A stretch of DNA of 64,000 nt from Halorussus rarus (GTDB taxonomy: Archaea; Halobacteriota; Halobacteria; Halobacteriales; Haladaptataceae), in contig NZ_QPMJ01000001.1 in assembly GCF_003369835.1 (NCBI RefSeq), positions 1,173,589 to 1,237,588 on the forward strand. Direction: 5' to 3'. Of this stretch, positions 2,990-13,139 are shown piece after piece (position 1 is the first letter of the stretch; every line of letters starts with the position of its first letter). The notes beneath the pieces were generated by a model. That model did not search any database. It was not told the origin of the DNA and worked only from the letters and a program-made list of their open reading frames with translations. The position numbers and the translations under genes were made by a program.

Positions 2990-3071
2990 GAGCGCGCGAT
3001 GCCCGATGCGCCGCCTCTTCGGAAACCGACCGGGAAAAGAGCTATACGGGACCGGAGAGTGGGTTGGTAGC

Positions 3072-4160
3072 ATGACTCGCATCGAGGTCGAGTCGCTCAC
3101 GAAGCAGTTCGGCCCGGTGACGGCGGTCGACGGCATCAGCTTCGACGTCGAGGGCGAGGAGTTCCTCTCCATCGTCGGGCCGTCGGGGTGCGGGAAGACG
3201 ACGACGCTGCGGTGCATCGCGGGACTCGAGACGCCCTCCGGGGGGCGCATCCGGTACGACGGCGCTGACGTCACCGACGTCCCGGTGAACGAGCGCAACA
3301 TCGCGATGATGTTCCAGTCCATCGCGCTGTACCCCCACATGACGCTCCGGAACAACATCGGCTACCCGCTGAAGGTGAGCGGCGTTCCCCGGAACGAACT
3401 GAACGACGAGGTCGAGGCGGCCGCCGAGGTGATGCAGATCGACGAGGACCTGGACAAGTACCCGGGCGAACTGAGCGGCGGCCAGCAACAGCGCGTCGCG
3501 CTCGCCCGGACGGTCGTCGGCGACTCGGTGGCGCTGTTGATGGACGAGCCCCTGAGCGACCTCGACGCGAAGCTCAAGGTCGAGATCCGCAAGGAGATCC
3601 AGCGCATCCACGGGCGCATCGGCGAGCCGGCCATCTACGTCACCCACGACCAGGAGGAGGCGATGACGATGAGCGACCGCATCGTGGTGATGAACGAGGG
3701 CCGCATCGAGCAGATCGGCGACGTCGACGAGGTGTACGACTATCCGAACAACCGGTTCGTGGCCGAGTTCATCGGCAACCCCAGCATGAACTTCGTGACC
3801 GGGTCGCTGTCGGAGCTGTCGGACGCGACCGCGACCGTCGAGATCGAGGAGAACGAGATCGCGTTCGACGTCGAGCGACTCGCCGACGGGCGCGACGGCG
3901 GCGTCACGGTGGGCGTCCGGCCGCAGAACGTCTCGCTGTCCGGGGAGGGCGTTCGGGCGTTCGCCGGTACGATACGGTTGCTCGAACCCATCGGCGACCG
4001 CACGCTCGCGACCATCGACGGCCCGCAGGGGGAGCTCTCGGCGCTGATACCCCGGGACGCCCCGGTCGCCGAGGGCGAGGAGACCGAGATCTACTTCGAC
4101 AGCGCGGAGCTGTACCTGTTCGACCCCGAGAGCACGACGCTCATCGCGCGGAGCAGCTGA
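3072..4160 (+). CDS. Carbohydrate-type ABC transporter ATP-binding protein (MalK/UgpC-like)
   Basis: A 362-residue ATPase that should power the importer encoded just downstream. Walker A is GPSGCGKTT near residue 36, the Q-loop is in MMFQSIALYPHM, the signature is LSGGQQQR near 134, Walker B is LLMDEPLSDLDA, and the switch histidine is in VTHDQEEAM. Residues after ~235 form the TOBE-type regulatory domain typical of the MalK/UgpC/MsmX subfamily. The start is the ATG at 3072 (MTRIEVESLTK); an in-frame extension to 3006 has no family similarity. There is a 217-base gap before the binding-protein gene, which has its own promoter. Such ATPases can serve more than one importer, so exclusivity is not certain. 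Confidence 0.96.
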   Translation: MTRIEVESLTKQFGPVTAVDGISFDVEGEEFLSIVGPSGCGKTTTLRCIAGLETPSGGRIRYDGADVTDVPVNERNIAMMFQSIALYPHMTLRNNIGYPLKVSGVPRNELNDEVEAAAEVMQIDEDLDKYPGELSGGQQQRVALARTVVGDSVALLMDEPLSDLDAKLKVEIRKEIQRIHGRIGEPAIYVTHDQEEAMTMSDRIVVMNEGRIEQIGDVDEVYDYPNNRFVAEFIGNPSMNFVTGSLSELSDATATVEIEENEIAFDVERLADGRDGGVTVGVRPQNVSLSGEGVRAFAGTIRLLEPIGDRTLATIDGPQGELSALIPRDAPVAEGEETEIYFDSAELYLFDPESTTLIARSS

Positions 4161-4340
4161 GAGCGCCGCCGCGCTCGTCAGCCGGCCGTCGTCGACTCGG
4201 CTTCCGGACCCGGCGAGCGCCGGGCGGCCGACCCCGAACGACGTCGATGCTGACGACGACCGAGCAGTTGCCACCGAATGTCAGTTACTGTATAATGATG
4301 CCGAGAATATAGATACTGGGCGGACTGGTTACATCCCCTA

Positions 4341-4350
4341 GGTATATGTA
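4341..4350 (+). promoter_or_regulatory. TATA box for the binding-protein gene
   Basis: GGTATATGTA is centred about 32 bases before the ATG at 4378, which implies a leaderless or very short leader. It lies in an AT-rich patch (about 4285-4370) that stands out from the GC-rich surroundings, so the binding protein and permeases probably have their own promoter separate from the ATPase. Confidence 0.6.
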
Positions 4351-4377
4351 TCCCCGAATTGTGCGGTATGCCGTCAC

Positions 4378-5811
4378 ATGACGGGGGAACGTGACTCGGG
4401 AGACGACGCGAGAACGGGGGACGGAGAATCGGGCGCGACCGGGAGCGACCACAGTCGGCGGCGGGTGATGAAGCTGGTCGGCGCGAGTTCGGTCGCCGGC
4501 CTGTCCGGACTGTCGGGATACGCGGACCCGACCGCGGTGGCCCAGCAAACGACGACCCAGGGCGGCGACTGGCCCGACCTTAGCGGGACGGAGGTCCACT
4601 TCCTGACCGACGAGTCGAGCGAGGCGTTCACCAACTTCTTCCAGCGGGTCAAGAGCGACTTCGAGCGCGACACCGGCGCGACCGTCAACCTCGACCTGGT
4701 GAACCTCGGCGAGCAGGGCCAGCGGCTCGCCCAGCTGTTGCAGGCCGGCGACCCGCCGGACGTGATGCAGGCTGTCCAGACGCGGGTGGTCCAGCTCCAG
4801 CACCAGGGGGTCGCGGCGCCGGTCAACTCGGCGATGTCGGACATGCTCGACCGCTACGGCGAGCCCGTGGGCGGGACGCGGGTGCAGGTCGACGGCGACG
4901 ACTACGGCGTGCCGTGCTGGATCAACCCCTCGGGCCAGTGGTACCGCGAGGACATCTACAATCAGGAGCCGACCGACTGGGACACGATGCTGGCCCAGGC
5001 CGAGCAGGCCGACGACCCGAACGGGACGCGGGGCACGTCGATTCCGCTCGCGCCCGCGCTGTGCAACGACTCGTTCTTCCTGGCGTACCTCTACACCAAC
5101 GAGGGCCGGGTGTGTGCGCGCGACGACAACGGGCAGGTCCAGTGCGTCATGGACCAGGGGGACAACCGTCAGCGGTGGATCGAGACCCTGGAGTTCCTCG
5201 GGAACCTCTACCAGTACTCGCCGACCAACGCGAACGCCGGCTGCTCCCAGCAGGTGCAGGCGATTCCGACCGGGACGTCGGCGGAGGCGGGCTACGTCGG
5301 GGCCCGACCCAAGGTCCAGAGCGTCCAGCAGGACGTGCCGTTCGCCGACCAGGTCCGGGCGTCGTTCGTGCCGTCGAACCGGACGTCTCAGAGCCACGCG
5401 AACTCCATCGCGTACATGACGTTCCAGGGCGCGAACACGGAGGCGGCCAACACGTTCGTCAGCTACATGTTCCAGGAACGGTACTTCATCGACCTGCTGC
5501 TGCTGACGCCCATCCACAACAACCCCTCGTACCCGTCCATCCGGGAGAACCAGGCGTACCAGCAGGGACTGAACCAGCTCTCGGACGCCTGGACCGACCA
5601 GGACGTCGAGACCTCGCTCGCGTTCGCCGACGAGATACTGCCGTTCAGCCAGGAGACGTCGCCGCCGAACCCGTACGCGGGAACCATCTACAGCTCGAAG
5701 CTGCTGGTCGACATCCTGAACGACGCGACCATCAACGAGCGGGACCCGGCCGCCATCGTCGACGACTACGCCGGCCAGATCCAGTCCGTGATCGACCAGT
5801 CGCGGGGGTAG
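4378..5811 (+). CDS. ABC transporter extracellular solute-binding protein, Tat-exported
   Basis: A 477-residue cluster-1 (sugar-type) binding protein that should capture substrate outside the cell for the permeases that follow. A twin-arginine signal (SRRRVMKLVGAS, near residue 23) is followed by a weakly hydrophobic stretch and an Ala/Gln-rich hinge (TAVAQQTT). The mature part has the two-lobe binding-protein pattern (EVHFLTDES..., DTGATVNLDLVNL, LLQAGDPPDVM). Haloarchaeal Tat-exported binding proteins usually have a lipobox cysteine after the signal. None is present here, so the protein may be released or held in another way. Five cysteines occur in the mature region (about residues 180, 229, 246, 254 and 288), unusually many for a haloarchaeal secreted protein. 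The substrate is unknown. Confidence 0.93.
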   Translation: MTGERDSGDDARTGDGESGATGSDHSRRRVMKLVGASSVAGLSGLSGYADPTAVAQQTTTQGGDWPDLSGTEVHFLTDESSEAFTNFFQRVKSDFERDTGATVNLDLVNLGEQGQRLAQLLQAGDPPDVMQAVQTRVVQLQHQGVAAPVNSAMSDMLDRYGEPVGGTRVQVDGDDYGVPCWINPSGQWYREDIYNQEPTDWDTMLAQAEQADDPNGTRGTSIPLAPALCNDSFFLAYLYTNEGRVCARDDNGQVQCVMDQGDNRQRWIETLEFLGNLYQYSPTNANAGCSQQVQAIPTGTSAEAGYVGARPKVQSVQQDVPFADQVRASFVPSNRTSQSHANSIAYMTFQGANTEAANTFVSYMFQERYFIDLLLLTPIHNNPSYPSIRENQAYQQGLNQLSDAWTDQDVETSLAFADEILPFSQETSPPNPYAGTIYSSKLLVDILNDATINERDPAAIVDDYAGQIQSVIDQSRG

Positions 5812-5942
5812 CACGACCGGGCGCGGTTCCCGGCGGGGTCCGGTCTGCGACCGGGACCCAGTTCCCGCCGGGGACGTGATTGAACACCGCACGATACTTT
5901 CAGCGATACGACACCACTCGCCAGCATCCGACTCGACACAAC

Positions 5943-6902
5943 ATGGCTACCGATACACAGACCGAGGACCAGTCGCTCCGCGAACGGCGGCTCCGATACC
6001 GGAACTCGCTGTACGAGTTCCTCTCGCGGCGACGAGTCATGGCCGCCTTCACCATCCTGCCCGCGCTGCTGCTGTTCGTCTTCATCACGCTCGGGCCCAT
6101 CGTCTGGGCCGTCGCGGCGGGGTTCTACGAGATCCCGGTGTTCGTCCCGACGTGGGAGTTCGTCTGGTTCGACAACTACGTCGAGCTGCTCACCGAGGAG
6201 ACGTTCTGGATGACGGTCTGGCGGTCGGTCGTCTTCGCCGGCGGGTCGACCGCGTTCCAGCTCGTCGTCGGCACCGGCATCGCGCTGCTCGTCAACCGCC
6301 AGTTCCGGTTCTCGAACGTCGTCCAGGCCGTCGTCATCCTGCCGTACATGATTCCGACGGCCGTGCTCGGCTTCATGGCGCTGTGGATCGGCAACGCCCA
6401 GTGGGGCGTCCTCAACGGGGTGCTGATCGAACTGGGTCTCCTCGACAACCCGTTCAGCTGGTTCGGTAACCACAGCACGGCGATGCTGTCGGTTATCCTC
6501 ACGAGCAGCTGGAAGTTCACCATCTTCGTCACGATAATGGTGCTCGCCCGGCTCCAGAGCATCCCCCAGGACCACTACGAGGCCGCCCGGGTGGCGGGCG
6601 CCTCCTCCTACCAGGTGTTCCGGGACATCACACTGCCGAACCTCAAGAACGTCATCTTCATCGTCATCCTGCTCCGGGGCGTCTGGATGTTCAACAAGTT
6701 CGACATCGTCTACGTGCTGACCGGCGGCGGGCCGGGCGACGCGACCCGCACCGCGCCCATCTACGCCTACGAACTGGGCTTCGGACTCACCCGACTCGGG
6801 AAGGCGGCGGCGATGTCGACGCTCCTGTTCGTCTTCCTCGTCGCCGTCGCGCTCGTCTACTTCCGGGTGCTCGAACCCGCCGAGGGGGTGCGTACCGAAT
6901 GA
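5943..6902 (+). CDS. ABC transporter permease, MalF/UgpA type
   Basis: A 319-residue inner-membrane permease with about six hydrophobic segments after a basic cytoplasmic N-terminus. The EAA coupling loop is visible (YEAARVAGASSYQVFRDITLP, near residue 218), and the segment FDIVYVLTGGGPGDATRTAPIYAYE is typical of MalF/UgpA-type sugar permeases. I start at ATG 5943 (MATDTQTE); an upstream TTG at 5880 is in frame but unlikely. Its stop overlaps the start of the next permease in an ATGA arrangement, so the two are translationally coupled. It should form a heterodimer with that permease and work with the ATPase at 3072 and the binding protein at 4378. Confidence 0.94.
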   Translation: MATDTQTEDQSLRERRLRYRNSLYEFLSRRRVMAAFTILPALLLFVFITLGPIVWAVAAGFYEIPVFVPTWEFVWFDNYVELLTEETFWMTVWRSVVFAGGSTAFQLVVGTGIALLVNRQFRFSNVVQAVVILPYMIPTAVLGFMALWIGNAQWGVLNGVLIELGLLDNPFSWFGNHSTAMLSVILTSSWKFTIFVTIMVLARLQSIPQDHYEAARVAGASSYQVFRDITLPNLKNVIFIVILLRGVWMFNKFDIVYVLTGGGPGDATRTAPIYAYELGFGLTRLGKAAAMSTLLFVFLVAVALVYFRVLEPAEGVRTE

Positions 6903-7789
6903 GCAACCCGCCCGAGACGCCCGACGACGCCGCCAGCGCGGTGGCGACCGACGGCGCCCTGAGCTACCGCCAGATCCGGTTGCTGAAGCGGGCAGGCCTG
7001 GGCCTCGCGATCGCTCTCGTGCTGGCCGTCGTCCTCTTTCCGATCCTCTGGATGTTCCACACGTCGCTGCGCCCCCAGAGCCAGATATTCATCGAATCGG
7101 TCCCGCTGGTGCCGGAGGTGATCTCGCTGGTCCACTACCGGACGTTGCTGTTCGAGACCGAGTTCCCGCAGTTCTACGCCAACAGCATCGTCGTCTCGCT
7201 CGGGGTGGTCTCGCTGACCGTGGTGCTGTCGACGCTCGGGGGGTACGGGCTGGCCCGGCTGGACTTCCGGTTCAAGCGGAAGTTCGCCCGGCTCGTGCTG
7301 TTCGGGTACATGTTCCCGGCGATCCTGCTCTCGATTCCGATGTTCATCATCTGGACCGAGATCAACCTCACGAACAACCTGTTCGGACTGGTGTTGGCCG
7401 AGACGGCGCTCTCGCTGCCGTTCTCGCTCTGGCTGATGTGGCAGTTCTTCCAGACGGTCCCGCGGTCGCTGGAGGAGTCCGCCCGGACCGCGGGAGCGAC
7501 CCGGTTCCAGGCGTTCAAGGACGTCGCGATCCCGCTCGCCAAGCCCGGGATGATCGCGGTCGCGCTGTTCTCCTACGCGGTGTCGTGGAACGAGTACACG
7601 ATCCCGAAGGTGCTGATGTCCGACCGGAGCAAGTGGCCGCTGACGGTCGGCCTCTTCACACTGTCGGAGGGCCAGCGGGTCTTCTGGGGTCAGATCATGG
7701 CCGCCAGCATCATGATCGTCCTCCCGGCGTTCGTCTTCGTGATCGTGCTTCGGAAGTACCTCCTCGAGGGGTTCCGGACCGGGCTGTGA
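6899..7789 (+). CDS. ABC transporter permease, MalG/UgpE type
   Basis: A 296-residue partner permease. An acidic N-terminus precedes a first membrane helix (LGLAIALVLAVVLFPILWMF), and further helices are spaced as in MalG/UgpE proteins. The coupling loop reads EESARTAGATRFQAFKDVAIPL near residue 195, and the C-terminus ends with the usual short YLLEGFRTGL tail. It begins inside the last codons of the previous permease (4-base overlap). The importer is complete within 3072-7789. The class suggests mono-, di- or oligosaccharides or glycerol-phosphate-like compounds; nothing in the sequence fixes which. Confidence 0.94.
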   Translation: MSNPPETPDDAASAVATDGALSYRQIRLLKRAGLGLAIALVLAVVLFPILWMFHTSLRPQSQIFIESVPLVPEVISLVHYRTLLFETEFPQFYANSIVVSLGVVSLTVVLSTLGGYGLARLDFRFKRKFARLVLFGYMFPAILLSIPMFIIWTEINLTNNLFGLVLAETALSLPFSLWLMWQFFQTVPRSLEESARTAGATRFQAFKDVAIPLAKPGMIAVALFSYAVSWNEYTIPKVLMSDRSKWPLTVGLFTLSEGQRVFWGQIMAASIMIVLPAFVFVIVLRKYLLEGFRTGL

Positions 7790-7847: not shown

Positions 7848-9548
7848 TCACCGGAAGTTGAGTTCGACCTCGTGGAAGTACCGCGGCCGGTCGGTGGTCT
7901 CGAGCCGGCGCGGCGTCGGCGGGACCGTCCGCTTGTGCCGGGTGTCGAGGTGCCATGCCGCGCACCGCCGGACCGGCTCGGGGTCGAGGTCGAGTGCGTC
8001 GGCGGTCCGGGCCACGCCGAGGTCGCCGTCGACAAGCCGGGCGAGCACCCGGTCGAGGGTCTCGTACGGAATCCCGAAGTCGCCCTCGTCGGTCTGGCCG
8101 GCGCGGAACCCGGCGGTCGGCGGCTGGTCGAGCACCTCGGCCGGGAGGTCGAGATACCGGCCGAGCGCGCTGACCTCCGTCTTGTAGCAGTTGCCCAGCG
8201 GCCGGAGATCGACCCCGCCGTCGCCGTACTTGGTGAAATAGCCCAGCAGCCGTTCGGTCCGGTTGGTCGTTCCCAGGACCAGCCGGGAGGTGGCGTTGGC
8301 GACGTAGTAGGCGCACGCCATCCGGAGGCGCGCGACGAGGTTGCCGAGTTCCCGGGTCCCGGCGGACCGGGTCACCTCGGTCGGCAGGCGGCGCTCGATC
8401 TCCGAGACCACCGGGTGGACGTTCACCCGGGCGTAGTCGATGCCCAGGTCGGTCGCCAGCGACCCCGGGTCGACCGTCGCGGCGTCGGTCCCCTTGTGAC
8501 AGGGGAGGTGGAGGACGTAGACCCTGTCGGGACCGAGCGCCTCGGCCGCGAGCGCGGCCGCCGCGCTCGAATCCAGCCCGCCGCTCATGTTGACGACGAC
8601 CCCGTCGGCGTCGGCGCGCTCGACGTACTCGCGGACGGACTCGGTCAGCCGGTCGGCGAGCCGGGCCGCCCCGGCCCGGTCGGACGCGAACGTCGGCCGG
8701 GGGTCGCCGGCCGCGGTCCGCCTGGTCGGCGTCGGCGGCCGCGAGCGCTTATGGGCGGTCCGGGCGACCGTGGCGGCGTACTGCCGGACCCGGCCCTCGT
8801 CGACGTCCCGCGCCCGGGCGGTTGCCGGAACGTCCCGGTCCTCGTCCACCAGCGACCGGAGCACGCCGTCGAGCGTCTCGTAGGGCGCGCCGAGCTCCGA
8901 CTCGTCGGTCTGGCCCGACCAGAACCCCGCAGTCGGGGGTTTCTCGATTACGTCGTCGGGAACCTCGAGGTCTCCAGCGAGTCGTCGGACCTCGGTCTTG
9001 TAGTAGTCGGCGAGCGGGAGGACGTCGGCGCCGCCGTCGCCGTACTTGGTGAAGTAGCCCAGCAACCGCTCGCTCCGGTTGCTCGTGCCGACCACGAGCC
9101 GGGAGGTGGCGTTGGCCACGAAGTAGGCGCACGCCATCCGCAGCCTGGCCGCGAGGTTCCCGACCGCGTACCGGTCGCCGCCGGGCGCGATCTTCGGCCC
9201 GACGCTCCGCTCGAAGGCGTCGAGCGCCGACTGGAGCGGCACGTGGTCGTACTCGACGCCCAGGTCGACCGCGAGCTGGCGGGCGTCCCGGGTGTTCGCC
9301 GCCCGGTTCTGTGCGGTCGGGAGCAACAGCCCCGACACCCGGTCCGCGCCGAGCGCGTCGGCCGCCAGCGCGGCCGTGGCCGAGGAGTCGACCCCGCCGC
9401 TCATGTTGACGACCACGCCCTCGGCGTCGGCGTCCTCGACCGTCTCGCGGAGGAGTGTCGCGGCGCGCTCCCGCAGTTCGTCCGGCGAGAGGCCGGTCCG
9501 GTCGCGGGGCGCGGTCGACTCGACCGGCGGGGACCGTCGCATCGCCAC
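7848..9548 (-). CDS. Tandem NAD synthetase protein (two fused NadE domains)
   Basis: A 566-residue protein made of two complete NH3-dependent NAD synthetase (NadE) modules, where the family norm is a single module of about 250-275 residues. Module 1 has the P-loop SGGVDSS (50-56), NLAARLRM, GTSNRSE, GYFTKYGDGGADVLPL, KPPTAGFWSGQTDE and PYETLDGVL. Module 2 repeats them: SGGLDSS (322-328), NLVARLRM, GTTNRTE, GYFTKYGDGGVDLRPL, QPPTAGFRAGQTDE and PYETLDRVL. Both keep the ATP-binding and catalytic glutamate/aspartate positions, so both could adenylate nicotinate adenine dinucleotide and amidate it with ammonia. The GTG at 9548 lies two bases after the upstream gene's stop and has GGAGGTGA six bases before it. 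The fusion could be a pseudo-dimer, since ordinary NadE is a homodimer. Another ammonia-using ATP-pyrophosphatase reaction remains possible. Confidence 0.9.
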   Translation of the reverse strand: MAMRRSPPVESTAPRDRTGLSPDELRERAATLLRETVEDADAEGVVVNMSGGVDSSATAALAADALGADRVSGLLLPTAQNRAANTRDARQLAVDLGVEYDHVPLQSALDAFERSVGPKIAPGGDRYAVGNLAARLRMACAYFVANATSRLVVGTSNRSERLLGYFTKYGDGGADVLPLADYYKTEVRRLAGDLEVPDDVIEKPPTAGFWSGQTDESELGAPYETLDGVLRSLVDEDRDVPATARARDVDEGRVRQYAATVARTAHKRSRPPTPTRRTAAGDPRPTFASDRAGAARLADRLTESVREYVERADADGVVVNMSGGLDSSAAAALAAEALGPDRVYVLHLPCHKGTDAATVDPGSLATDLGIDYARVNVHPVVSEIERRLPTEVTRSAGTRELGNLVARLRMACAYYVANATSRLVLGTTNRTERLLGYFTKYGDGGVDLRPLGNCYKTEVSALGRYLDLPAEVLDQPPTAGFRAGQTDEGDFGIPYETLDRVLARLVDGDLGVARTADALDLDPEPVRRCAAWHLDTRHKRTVPPTPRRLETTDRPRYFHEVELNFR

Positions 9549-9550
9549 CG

Positions 9551-10510
9551 TCAGTCACCTCCTCCGTCGGTCTCCCGCGGCTCCCCCGTCGCACGGGACG
9601 CGCTCGCCTCGCTCCGCCGGACCCGCCTGGCGTATCGGACCGCGATGCGGCCGACGAGCGCGGGCGCGATGTCGAGGGCCTCCGCGGTCTGCTCGATGCC
9701 GGCGCCGTCGTCGAGCAGCTTCCACAGGACGGCGTCGACCGTCTCCACGGTGAGCGCGGCGTCCGGGGTCGCGGTCGGCCCGAACCACCGCCTGTCGGCG
9801 TCAGGGCCGTCGGCGCGCGGGGTCGGCACGCCGAGGTGGCGGCCGAGCTCCCGGACCTCGGACAGGTAGAGGTCGCCGAGCGGGAGCAGGTCGGCGCCCG
9901 GGTCGCTCGCCCGGACGGGAGCGGCGCCGACCAGCGACGTCCGGGTGCCCGGACCGAGCACGAGCCGCGAGGCGGCGCTCGCCTCGACGGCGGCCGCGAG
10001 CTCGCCGAGACAGAGAGCGACGGCGCGGCGGACCGCCGGGGCGCGGTCGTCGGCGTCCGCGGCGTCACCGTCTTTGGCCGGCGAGGCTGCGCCGGTTCCC
10101 GGACGGTCCCCCACGAGGGCGGTCGCGTCGTCGGAGAACGTCCGGGCCAGAGCTTCGACGTACGGCGCGACGTCGAGCTGCCGCGCCGAGATGCCGAGCT
10201 CCGTCGCGGCGCGCCGACCGGGCGCGTCGTCGCCGAAGGCGTCCGCCTTCGGGTCTGCTCGGTCGGCGTCTCCGGCAGTCGTCGGGAGGAGACCCCGGAC
10301 CGACTCCCGGCCGAGCGCCTCCGCGGCCAGGGCGGCGACGACCGCCGAGTCGACGTCGCCGGTCAGGGCCACGACGACGCCGTCGGCGCCGGCGTCGGCG
10401 ACGGCGCGTTCGATGAACGCCCTCCGCTCGCGGGCGGTCGCCTGGGGGTCGTCGAGCGCGGGCTGATCGACGTCGGCGGACCAATCGAGATGCTGGGCTG
10501 TGCGTGACAT
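9551..10510 (-). CDS. Degenerate NAD-synthetase-like protein (likely pseudoenzyme)
   Basis: A 319-residue intact reading frame that aligns by eye with the NadE modules of the next gene but has lost most catalytic motifs. The P-loop is TGDVDSA (50-56) instead of SGGxDSS. The GTxNRxE glutamate is replaced (GPGTRTS), GYFTKYGDGG is absent (GAAPVRASDPGADLLPL), and the KPPTAG...GQTDE segment is gone (RRWFGPTATPDAALTVETVD). The structural core LLPLGDLYLSEVRELGRHLGVP and the C-terminal helix pattern remain. The acidic/Ala-rich stretch after ~130 is an insertion. The ATG at 10510 is used because the longer frame upstream has no similarity. It ends two bases before the tandem NadE gene and starts 115 bases after glnK. 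It may be a regulatory or scaffold subunit of the tandem enzyme; it is not obviously a pseudogene, since the frame is uninterrupted. Confidence 0.75.
   Translation of the reverse strand: MSRTAQHLDWSADVDQPALDDPQATARERRAFIERAVADAGADGVVVALTGDVDSAVVAALAAEALGRESVRGLLPTTAGDADRADPKADAFGDDAPGRRAATELGISARQLDVAPYVEALARTFSDDATALVGDRPGTGAASPAKDGDAADADDRAPAVRRAVALCLGELAAAVEASAASRLVLGPGTRTSLVGAAPVRASDPGADLLPLGDLYLSEVRELGRHLGVPTPRADGPDADRRWFGPTATPDAALTVETVDAVLWKLLDDGAGIEQTAEALDIAPALVGRIAVRYARRVRRSEASASRATGEPRETDGGGD
9555..9562 (-). promoter_or_regulatory. Strong Shine-Dalgarno deciding the GTG start of the tandem NadE gene
   Basis: On the minus strand GGAGGTGA ends six bases before GTG 9548 and twelve before ATG 9542, so the GTG is the better start. 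The site lies inside the last codons of the upstream NadE-like gene, which points to translational coupling. Confidence 0.7.
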
Positions 10511-10625
10511 TGGATGGACTACTGGTGTTGTTCGAGTGTTCCGAGAGAGCAATCGAATCGGCCGACCGCCGAGGTGGCCGGCCGGACGGGCGAACTGCGC
10601 GACGTCGGTCTCCCCCACAGTCACG

Positions 10626-10985
10626 TCAGACCGCGTCGACGCCGCTCTTGCCGGTGCGGACCTGGACCGCGTCCGACACGGGGAGGACGAATATCTTGCC
10701 GTCGCCGGGTTCGCCGGTGTTGGCCGCCTCCTGGATGGCGGCGACCACGTCCTCGGCGGGGACGTCGGCGACGACGCACTCGATCTTGACCTTCTGGTGG
10801 AGGTCGACCGTGTACTCCTCGCCGCGCCACTGCTCGGTCTTGGCGGGCTGGCTGCCCCGACCGCTGACGTCGGTGACGGTGAGGCTGGGCGCGCCGACCT
10901 CGGCGAGCGCGGCCTTGACGTCGCCGAGCCGGTCGGGCCTGACGATGGCCATCACGAGTTCGATGTCGCCGTCGGTCTCACTCAT
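10626..10985 (-). CDS. glnK: PII nitrogen-signalling protein (GlnB/GlnK family)
   Basis: A 119-residue PII trimer subunit that senses ATP/ADP and 2-oxoglutarate and typically plugs the Amt channel when nitrogen is sufficient. Seen are the N-terminal strand [19 protein letters not shown], the T-loop region [21 protein letters not shown] and the C-terminal nucleotide site [23 protein letters not shown]. Its start overlaps the end of amt, with GGAGGTGA six bases before the ATG, so the two are coupled as in the usual amt-glnK operon. The T-loop tyrosine (RGEEY) is kept. Nitrogen status probably controls this operon, but no specific operator could be recognised. Confidence 0.96.
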
Positions 10986-12366
10986 CCCGGCTCACCTCCG
11001 ACGCGCTGGCACCGCCGTCGGTGGCGACCGGACCGCTCTCGCCGGCACCGCTCGGGCGCCGGCCCGAATCGCTGGTCGTCCCCTCGACGAACTCGGGGTA
11101 GGCGGTGTAGCCGTGCTCGCTCCGGTCGAGGCCGAGCTGCTCGTCCTCGTCGTCGACGCGGAGCCCGACCGTCACGTCGGCCAGTTTGAACACCAGCCAC
11201 GTGGTGACGACGGTCCAGAGTGCGATGACGCCGATGCCGATGGCCTGCATCACGAACTGGATTGCCGAGAAGCCGCCGACCGCGAACACCGGGATGAGCA
11301 GGGTGCCGATGGCGCCCGCGCTGCCGTGGACCGCGAACACGCCGCAGACGTCGTCGATCTTGAGCGAGTCGACGACCCACCGGTAGACGAGCGGGGTCTG
11401 GACGCCGGCGATGACGCCGAGCGCGAGACCGCCCCACCACGTGACGTGGGGGACCGCGCCGGTGACGCCGACGAGACCCGCGAGCAGGCCGTTGGCCGTG
11501 AACAGCGGGTCGGGCTTGCCCTCGGTGTACACCGTGGTGAGGGCGGCCGCGACAGCGCCGCCGCCCATGCCGAGCGTGGTGTTGAGCGCGACCCGGCCCA
11601 GCGCGTCGCCCATGAAGGTGAGCCCGCCGTCCTCGACGGCGAGCACCGTCGCCTGGGTGCCGACGTTGAAGCCGTACCAGCCGAACGCCAGGATGAAGGT
11701 TCCGAGCACCGCGAACGTGATGGAGTGGCCGGGGATGGGGTTGCTCTCGCCCGTCTCGTCGAAGCGCCCGCGCCGCGGGCCGACCATCCACGCGCCGACG
11801 AGACCGGCGACCCCGCCCAGCATGTGGACGACCGTGGCGCCCGCGAAGTCGAGGTAGCCGACGCCGAGCGCCGAGCCGATGAAGCCGCTCGACGACAGCA
11901 GGCCGCCGCCCCAGGCGAAGCCCTGGACGACGGGGTAGATGACCGCGGTCAGGCCGATCGAGTAGAACACGTACGCCTTGAACTTGATGCGCTCTGCGAC
12001 CGCCCCGCTCACGATGGTGGCGGCGGTCATCGCGAACACCGCGCCGAACAGCCAGCTGACCCACGACCCGGAGTCGTTGATGTAGCTGAACGACGAGGCG
12101 AGTCCGGACGAGCCCGACGCCGTCAGCGTGGCGGCCACGCCCGCGATACCGAGTCCGACCAGGAAGTAGACGATGACGCCCATGCCCCAGTCCATCAGGT
12201 TCTTCATGAGGACGTTGGCGACGTTCTTCGCCCGGACCTGGCCGGCCTCCAGCAGCGCGAAGCCCGGCTGCATGAAGAAGATGAGGAACGACACGGTCAG
12301 CACCCAGACGGTGTTGACCCCGCTCGCGAGTTCGGTGAACTGCTGGAGTGCGGCGAGGTCAACCAT
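10978..12366 (-). CDS. amt: Ammonium transporter Amt
   Basis: A 462-residue Amt/Mep/Rh channel with eleven predicted membrane helices that brings ammonium into the cell. Family marks include [19 protein letters not shown] near the start, the aspartate/first pore histidine segment [15 protein letters not shown] near residue 170, [10 protein letters not shown] and the second pore histidine in [14 protein letters not shown]. The cytoplasmic tail beyond the last helix keeps the conserved [29 protein letters not shown] segment, then has a low-complexity Ser/Gly/Asp extension of about 40 residues. A GGAGGCGA ribosome site precedes the ATG by about five bases, and the start overlaps the end of the small acidic protein upstream. 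PII follows directly. Confidence 0.97.
10992..10999 (-). promoter_or_regulatory. Shine-Dalgarno of glnK
   Basis: GGAGGTGA on the minus strand, six bases before the glnK ATG and inside the 3' end of amt. Same motif and spacing as at 9555-9562, 28596-28603 and 32343-32350. Confidence 0.7.
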
Positions 12367-12685
12367 CGAGTTCGCCTCCCGTTACGGGGTGCTCGGCGTT
12401 GCGAGCCGCGAGGTCCCGCTCGCGGTCGACCGCCGAGCCGGTCTCGCCCGGGACGTCGGTCGGGTAGGTGACGTCCGACTGTATCCAGGCGTGGGTGCGG
12501 GTGCGGTCGTACACCACGACCGCGTCGTCCGCGAGATTCAGTTCGGCGTATCTCCCGTCGTCGGGGTCGGTCGCGTCGATCGTCGGTGGAGTGTCGTCCA
12601 TCGGTTTGTCAGCTCCGTCGGTATCGTTCGTGCGTTCGCTCGCAGCGGCGCCATCTTTCCCGGAATCGTTCGTGTACTTTTTCAT
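12359..12685 (-). CDS. Small acidic protein at the head of the amt-glnK operon
   Basis: About 108 residues from the ATG at 12685, or 80 from the alternative ATG at 12601; the family boundary is not certain. The N-terminal part is polar and low complexity (TNDSGKDGAAASERTND). The conserved-looking core is GRYAELNLADDAVVVYDRTRTHAWIQSDVTY, which resembles short uncharacterised haloarchaeal proteins (possibly DUF7331, recalled and not checked). There is no signal peptide or membrane helix. The stop overlaps the amt start by 8 bases, so the two are probably translated together. A link to ammonium transport is inferred from position only. Confidence 0.7.
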   Translation of the reverse strand: MKKYTNDSGKDGAAASERTNDTDGADKPMDDTPPTIDATDPDDGRYAELNLADDAVVVYDRTRTHAWIQSDVTYPTDVPGETGSAVDRERDLAARNAEHPVTGGELDG

Positions 12686-12793
12686 GAGATATTCTTCCGT
12701 TTGTCGTTCGTAATCGGTTCTGAAACCGTATCTAGTCCGCTTATCGGACACTCGTTCGACGTTCGTCCGTTCATCGTCTACACCGTCCGGCAA

Positions 12794-13139
12794 CAGCTAT
12801 CATTTACTAAAAGGTTTCGTACGGTTGCCTAATCCGAGATGGTATTGTTAACAGTATAAGGAATATATTAGGGCGAATAGGTTCGAAAACGGAGGCTGAG
12901 TCAAGATAGATACAATTTATTAAAATTCTGTGGGTGCAACCACCGCCTTTCCTCCTCCGAAGACGGGTACGAGCGAGTTGGACTGAGCCGGTTCAATCTG
13001 GACCGCATCAAGAATTACCTATTCGTCCAAAGTAGTAGTTGATAATGGTCGAACGTCAATTACTATCTGGAATCGGTTGTACTCCTCTAGGAGATACTAG
13101 GGAAGAGTTTACATTCTGTGTGGAAAACACTATCACGTT
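12794..13139. other. AT-rich intergenic region upstream of the amt operon
   Basis: No convincing gene. The stretch is clearly richer in A+T than the rest of the window, especially 12800-12925, with several TATA-like patches on both strands. It separates the leftward amt operon from the rightward zinc-ribbon gene and probably holds both promoters. No clear palindromic operator was recognised. Confidence 0.6.

Follow-up and report, generated by a model that had tools for sequence, protein, structure and literature searches.

Why should a haloarchaeal locus for ammonium transport and PII signalling also hold three copies of the NAD synthetase module NadE, two fused into one protein and the third stripped of its catalytic motifs? 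The question is raised by five genes on the minus strand of a 64,000-nucleotide stretch of Halorussus rarus DNA, called the window here, which, taken in the direction of transcription, are a small DUF7331-like open reading frame (ORF), amt, glnK, a degenerate NadE homologue and a tandem fused NadE. An earlier note on this DNA had offered two answers, a module which makes NAD in response to ammonia and has a regulatory pseudo-subunit, or a NadE-derived enzyme with a new ammonia-consuming reaction. The second found no positive support, the canonical NadE motifs being retained, while the first is the reading best supported by the motifs, a recurrent gene linkage and a constrained dead partner, with regulation by PII and by the pseudo-subunit as its putative part. 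In our judgement the balance tips modestly towards an accessory ammonia-dependent NAD synthetase which is controlled together with amt and glnK and uses a pseudo-enzyme partner.

The tandem NadE (7848-9548, minus strand; 566 amino acids, aa) matched the Pfam NAD_synthase profile at 462.7 bits and NF010587 at 525 bits, and its modules taken singly scored 246.6 and 220.7 bits against a curated cut-off of 21. The double anatomy described in the earlier note was reproduced in full. SGG.DSS P-loops lie at residues 50-56 and 322-328, GT.NR.E with its conserved glutamate at residues 154-160 and 426-432, GYFTKYGDGG and GQTDE are present in both halves, and in the motif table both modules keep SGGxDS, GNxxAR, GTxNRxE, GYFTKYGDGG, PTAG..GQTDE and HKR. 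By these domain and motif tests the protein is assigned to the NadE family. No glutaminase domain was found in it, Pfam giving only NAD_synthase and weaker related PP-loop matches, and for this reason it falls outside the published class of PII-regulated glutamine-dependent NadE (NadE-Gln); by analogy, it may work in a similar way. The AlphaFold2 model of the tandem (predicted local distance difference test, pLDDT, 82.9; predicted template-modelling score, pTM, 0.85 over 565 residues) had its closest PDB matches among NH3-dependent NAD synthetases, with 2e18 at TMt 0.92 over one module, and a pTM of this height suggests that the halves pack against each other in a definite way, as a single-chain dimer with a predicted interface. 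Both modules share the fold and motif set of NadE type N (M. jannaschii MJ1352, P. horikoshii 2e18), from which the present system differs by the fusion of two modules, a C-terminal tail of its own, the adjoining degenerate third homologue and its place in a separate haloarchaeal paralogue clade. The tail (YFHEVELNFR, 7848-7880, minus strand), recognized by aligning the C termini of tandem proteins, is of a (Y/F)FHE(L/I/V)EL type which every one of the 14 tandem proteins has, with small variations, even where the second module is dead. It was not seen in the aligned single NadEs and upstream genes, and FHExEL had no second occurrence in the window genome.

Does this protein supply the NAD synthetase of the cell? 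The window genome, a haloarchaeal assembly of 4.37 Mb, gave eight matches to the NAD_synthase profile, including the two tandem modules and two pieces of the degenerate gene. Among them is a separate canonical single nadE on another contig (C2:1084710-1085435), scoring 282.2 bits with intact motifs. The NadE cluster is therefore additional, and the idea that it replaces the sole NAD synthetase was rejected. The tandem modules are related, at about 45-55% identity, to NadE2, a single NadE paralogue of about 300 aa present in many other genomes. In a tree of 74 NadE sequences, canonical NadE formed one group (100/97), and NadE2 was separated from it by a branch of length 1.04 with support of 100/100. 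So long and fully supported a branch would suit a NadE2 lineage which has switched substrate, for example from nicotinic acid mononucleotide to nicotinamide mononucleotide (NMN), or has taken up another ammonia-consuming adenylation; the Francisella NMN synthetase 3fiu was among the top structural matches, and archaeal NadM is able to use NMN (PMC3376133). However, all the NadE motifs that we checked are kept, the top structural hit is not 3fiu but an archaeal protein whose annotation reads NH3-dependent NAD synthetase, and one tested archaeal NadE, the ammonia-dependent enzyme of M. jannaschii, makes NAD and not NMN (PMC3376133). We regard a change of substrate as quite improbable.

Two bases upstream of the tandem gene (stop TGA, then CG, then the start GTG) ends the degenerate homologue, UP (9551-10510, minus strand; 319 aa; PF02540 at 66.8 bits). 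Its start was taken as the ATG at 10510, an alternative upstream start being the GTG at 10624, and GGAGGTGA ends six bases before the GTG of the tandem. As the earlier note had read it, the frame is intact and the motifs are gone: TGDVDS stands in place of SGGxDS and GPGTRTS in place of GTxNRxE, and both GYFTKYGDGG and GQTDE are missing. The AlphaFold2 model of UP (pLDDT 74.8, pTM 0.75) had NAD synthetases as its best solved matches, 2e18 among them at E 5e-12. An intact-frame orthologue is present in Haladaptatus pallidirubidus, and the motif table shows the catalytic motifs gone in both orthologues. Between them the ratio of nonsynonymous to synonymous substitution rates (dN/dS, Nei-Gojobori method) is 0.24, with dS saturated; the tandem gives 0.13 (module 1) and 0.16 (module 2) for the same two genomes. 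Judged by sequence and model, the product of 9551-10510 qualifies as a NadE pseudo-enzyme, with a NadE fold, its catalytic residues lost and its gene kept under selection. RefSeq names the H. pallidirubidus orthologue (L122:5072-5995) '7-cyano-7-deazaguanine synthase', which is probably a misannotation, and the tandem of that species 'NAD+ synthase'. A literature search of incomplete coverage found no paper on a NadE pseudo-enzyme or on DUF7331.

Whether such a cluster is old or accidental can be judged from its distribution and phylogeny. Full-length tandem NadE was found in 13 of 392 Halobacteriales genomes, the carriers including H. pallidirubidus, several Halobaculum species and Halocatena salina, and none was found outside the order at E 1e-90 in a 295-genome sample of the phylum which includes many genomes of the same order. 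In relatives most of the tandem genes are carried by replicons of 250-570 kb which are recorded as plasmids. The arrangement is not confined to one genome, as H. pallidirubidus has the identical five-gene order (DUF7331-like, amt, glnK, degenerate NadE, tandem NadE). In the tree, module 1 (97/96) and module 2 (100/99) each form one group, with a similar internal branching order over the 14 tandem proteins. This grouping implies a single old fusion, one that by the tree predates the separation of the lineages or the spread of the gene; a recent random duplication as its source was rejected on the same ground. The dead pair from the window and H. pallidirubidus groups (100/89) with a third NadE of Halobacteriales archaeon YIM A00010 (G380) that keeps most motifs and lies directly upstream of the tandem, and a leftover fragment of a third NadE gene lies upstream of the tandem in H. 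salina (G338). Together these suggest that the ancestral cluster included a third NadE. We consider a UP clade, made up of the dead pair and the G380 gene, likely; when the other UP rows were omitted, the live G380 copy and the dead pair each took no well-resolved position in the tree. In approximately unbiased (AU) tests module 2 of its own operon was disfavoured as the source of the dead gene (p 0.044), and the single Haladaptatus NadE2 was not rejected as one (p 0.12).

Is the dead copy then a partner or a relic? Across the 14 tandem proteins module 1 stays essentially whole; in G226, G389 and G282 its GQTDE block is slightly changed. In module 2 the P-loop and the motifs after it are gone from six of the tree's seven Halobaculum sequences and from the Halocatena-group genomes G226 and G389, and the motifs of lone NadE2 are lost at three loci (L116, L117, L119) of Natrinema, Halopiger and a further Halobacteria archaeon, these lone copies carrying DGGVET or DGSVET in the SGGxDS position. 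On the tree this amounts to four separate catalytic losses, three of them within tandem-bearing clusters (the separate UP gene, module 2 in Halobaculum and module 2 in G226/G389). In one Halobaculum plasmid (L123) module 2 appears, by eye, to be in an intermediate state, with the P-loop kept and GQTDE lost. For dead module 2, Halobaculum gives a dN/dS of 0.26-0.40 and G226/G389 one of 0.28, values near the 0.21-0.35 of the paired module 1. These low values, together with retention of the tail past a dead module 2, argue against free decay and support purifying selection on the dead copies. UP might still be a slowly decaying relic without function of its own beside a simple accessory NAD synthetase, as would fit its faster evolution than that of its neighbours, its reduction to a fragment in G338, the lack of any UP detected next to the Halobaculum tandems and the canonical nadE already in the genome. 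Against this, the UP frame is intact in two genera at a dN/dS of 0.24, its tight spacing to the tandem is preserved, and other lineages, in which dead partners had an independent origin, conserve them too, along with the tail beyond dead module 2. A relic therefore seems to us unlikely.

How is this enzyme tied to nitrogen? Immediately upstream of UP, at a gap of about 115 bases, lies glnK (10626-10985, minus strand), so that a PII gene adjoins a nadE homologue; it encodes a PII protein of 119 aa (PF00543, 101 bits) with a T-loop which aligns as similar to those of other haloarchaeal PII proteins. It overlaps, as the earlier note had also observed, and by 8 bases, the ammonium transporter gene amt (10978-12366, minus strand; 462 aa; PF00909 at 350 bits, TIGR00836 above its cut-off), the start of which is in turn overlapped by 8 bases by the DUF7331-like ORF (12359-12751, minus strand; the frame may start at 12793). 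The close spacing of the five genes suggests a single operon, presumably co-transcribed, with the DUF7331-like ORF as its first gene. The linkage of amt-glnK to NadE recurs in other Haladaptatus and in another family: in three Haladaptatus genomes amt-glnK is divergent from a single NadE2, and G038, of the other family, has glnA-amt-glnK-nadE on one strand. In all, 6 of 60 NadE2-bearing genomes have PII within about 3 kb of NadE2, in three arrangements. In one of these neighbourhoods (G008, L042:6366-7209) the single NadE2 beside amt-glnK is apparently in two frames and amt is split too, possibly through sequencing errors or frameshifts. On one plasmid of H. pallidirubidus a second, single NadE2 is accompanied, at a distance of about 6 kb, by a PII-like fragment with an internal stop (G005:C2:484405-484665).

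The earlier note knew of no described system of this form. That statement has to be narrowed: among the 1300 PII-nadE islands reported, some belong to Euryarchaeota and a few have a NadE which is ammonia-dependent, and bacterial PII binds a dimeric NadE of the glutamine-dependent type and relieves the inhibition that NAD+ exerts on it (PMC7196632). The locus is thus a new variant and not a new kind. With the NadE2 system of Azospirillum brasilense it shares the linkage of a NAD synthetase gene to a PII gene and the idea that nitrogen status controls NAD synthesis, and it differs in lacking a glutaminase domain, in the tandem fusion with a dead partner, in the putative nature of its PII control and in its further linkage to amt and a DUF7331-like gene (PMC7196632). 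Adjacent ammonium transporter and PII genes are also known in Haloferax (PMC3831643); here two NadE genes are added, and the genome also has a separate Amt-PII fusion. In that fusion (G000:C2, L097:3546-5324; 592 aa) the second PII of the window genome forms the C-terminal part. For the majority of 60 haloarchaeal genomes, the best PII falls within an open frame about 550-760 aa long, which suggests, with the fusion of the window genome as the one itself read, that Amt-PII fusion is widespread in haloarchaea.

The DUF7331-like ORF matched PF24018 at E=0.005, below the family cut-off, and a small hidden Markov model of RYAxLxLxDDxVIVYDRxxTxAWIQSD matched it as well as H. pallidirubidus and seven Halobaculum genomes. 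By its description, a small protein of Methanosarcina mazei which inhibits ammonium transport (PMC10714827) may serve as an analogy to the DUF7331-like product. Seven Halobaculum genomes whose neighbourhood was read have a DUF7331-like frame that stops directly upstream of the tandem, and two more Halobaculum plasmids repeat this arrangement. The gene 3' of the tandem, on the opposite strand, is conserved across the Halobaculum loci viewed (L075, L079-L083, L123, L124) and is annotated as a TrmB-family regulator in two plasmids. Ahead of the presumed operon a putative promoter and leader region (12752-12870, minus strand), partly within the longest DUF7331 frame, was recognized by its likeness to the upstream region of H. 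pallidirubidus. A two-sequence alignment showed that the two share CGAAAxCTTTTAGTxAAT, which resembles an archaeal BRE/TATA element (TFB recognition element and TATA box), and, some 30-40 bases downstream of this TATA-like block, ATGAxCGGACGAA. Here, as in the upstream regions of Halobaculum clusters, the start-like ATG of the latter block may open a short leaderless ORF (M(S/N)GR...) which precedes the DUF7331-like gene. CGAAA...TTTAG-like elements were seen by eye in several Halobaculum clusters. Nitrogen-regulated transcription could be all that joins the genes, the NadE riding in the operon without contact with GlnK, a proposal compatible with the enzyme activity favoured here. The promoter-like sequence common to both Haladaptataceae operons and the Halobaculum tandems, which keep the DUF7331-like gene and a converging TrmB-type regulator and have no amt-glnK, speak for it; three distinct arrangements of NadE with amt-glnK across lineages and the published PII-NadE contact in bacteria (PMC7196632) speak against it. 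We hold it to be a real but minority possibility. At the other end of the locus, a convergent ATP-binding cassette transporter gene set (3006-7789, plus strand; ATPase, binding protein and two permeases, assigned by reading) stops 58 bases short of the tandem gene.

Taken as an accessory NAD synthetase, the system would most likely operate with the two intact fused modules folded as a single-chain version of the NadE homodimer, amidating nicotinic acid adenine dinucleotide (NaAD) to NAD+ with ammonia and ATP. NadE is a homodimer which binds NaAD near its interface, and a dead protomer could therefore complete a live site or hold an allosteric position. The dead third NadE would be retained as a structural or regulatory partner, most simply by pairing with the tandem protein or relaying a GlnK or NAD+ signal, and co-expression with amt and glnK would let the additional capacity for making NAD follow nitrogen status. 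There may also be a direct action of GlnK on the NAD synthetase, like that of PII on the bacterial glutamine-dependent NadE. A bolder version, which we put forward tentatively and with less than even confidence, makes the dead NadE a dedicated regulatory subunit that lets GlnK and Amt gate the single-chain enzyme, live/dead pairs having evolved several times and NAD synthesis being set by ammonium supply through the pseudo-enzyme. The in vivo reaction, the intramolecular dimer, GlnK binding and the roles of the dead subunit and the DUF7331-like protein are what we infer from the gene and model comparisons. Several observations weigh against the accessory synthetase with its partner. The tandem occurs in only one of the 18 genomes sampled from the genus of the window and is thus dispensable, and amt-glnK is absent beside the Halobaculum and Halocatena-group tandems, so the linkage is not obligatory. 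The chance of at least three independent PII-NadE2 linkages, about 0.003 by a rough binomial, depends on an assumed rate of 0.5% per genome and on related genomes that are not independent. Identity between the orthologues is 83-85% for GlnK and Amt and 67-68% for the tandem modules, and falls to 42% for UP; long branches weaken the support of the UP clade, and an origin from module 1 gave an AU p of 0.13.

For an enzyme as central as NAD synthetase, knowledge of its regulation in archaea is scant. The repeated conversion of one partner into a conserved dead copy, in a family which normally forms symmetric homodimers, would be a natural test of the role of each NadE half, and related haloarchaea are genetically tractable. 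The amt-glnK linkage would extend PII control from bacterial glutamine-dependent NadE to the ammonia-dependent NadE of archaea.

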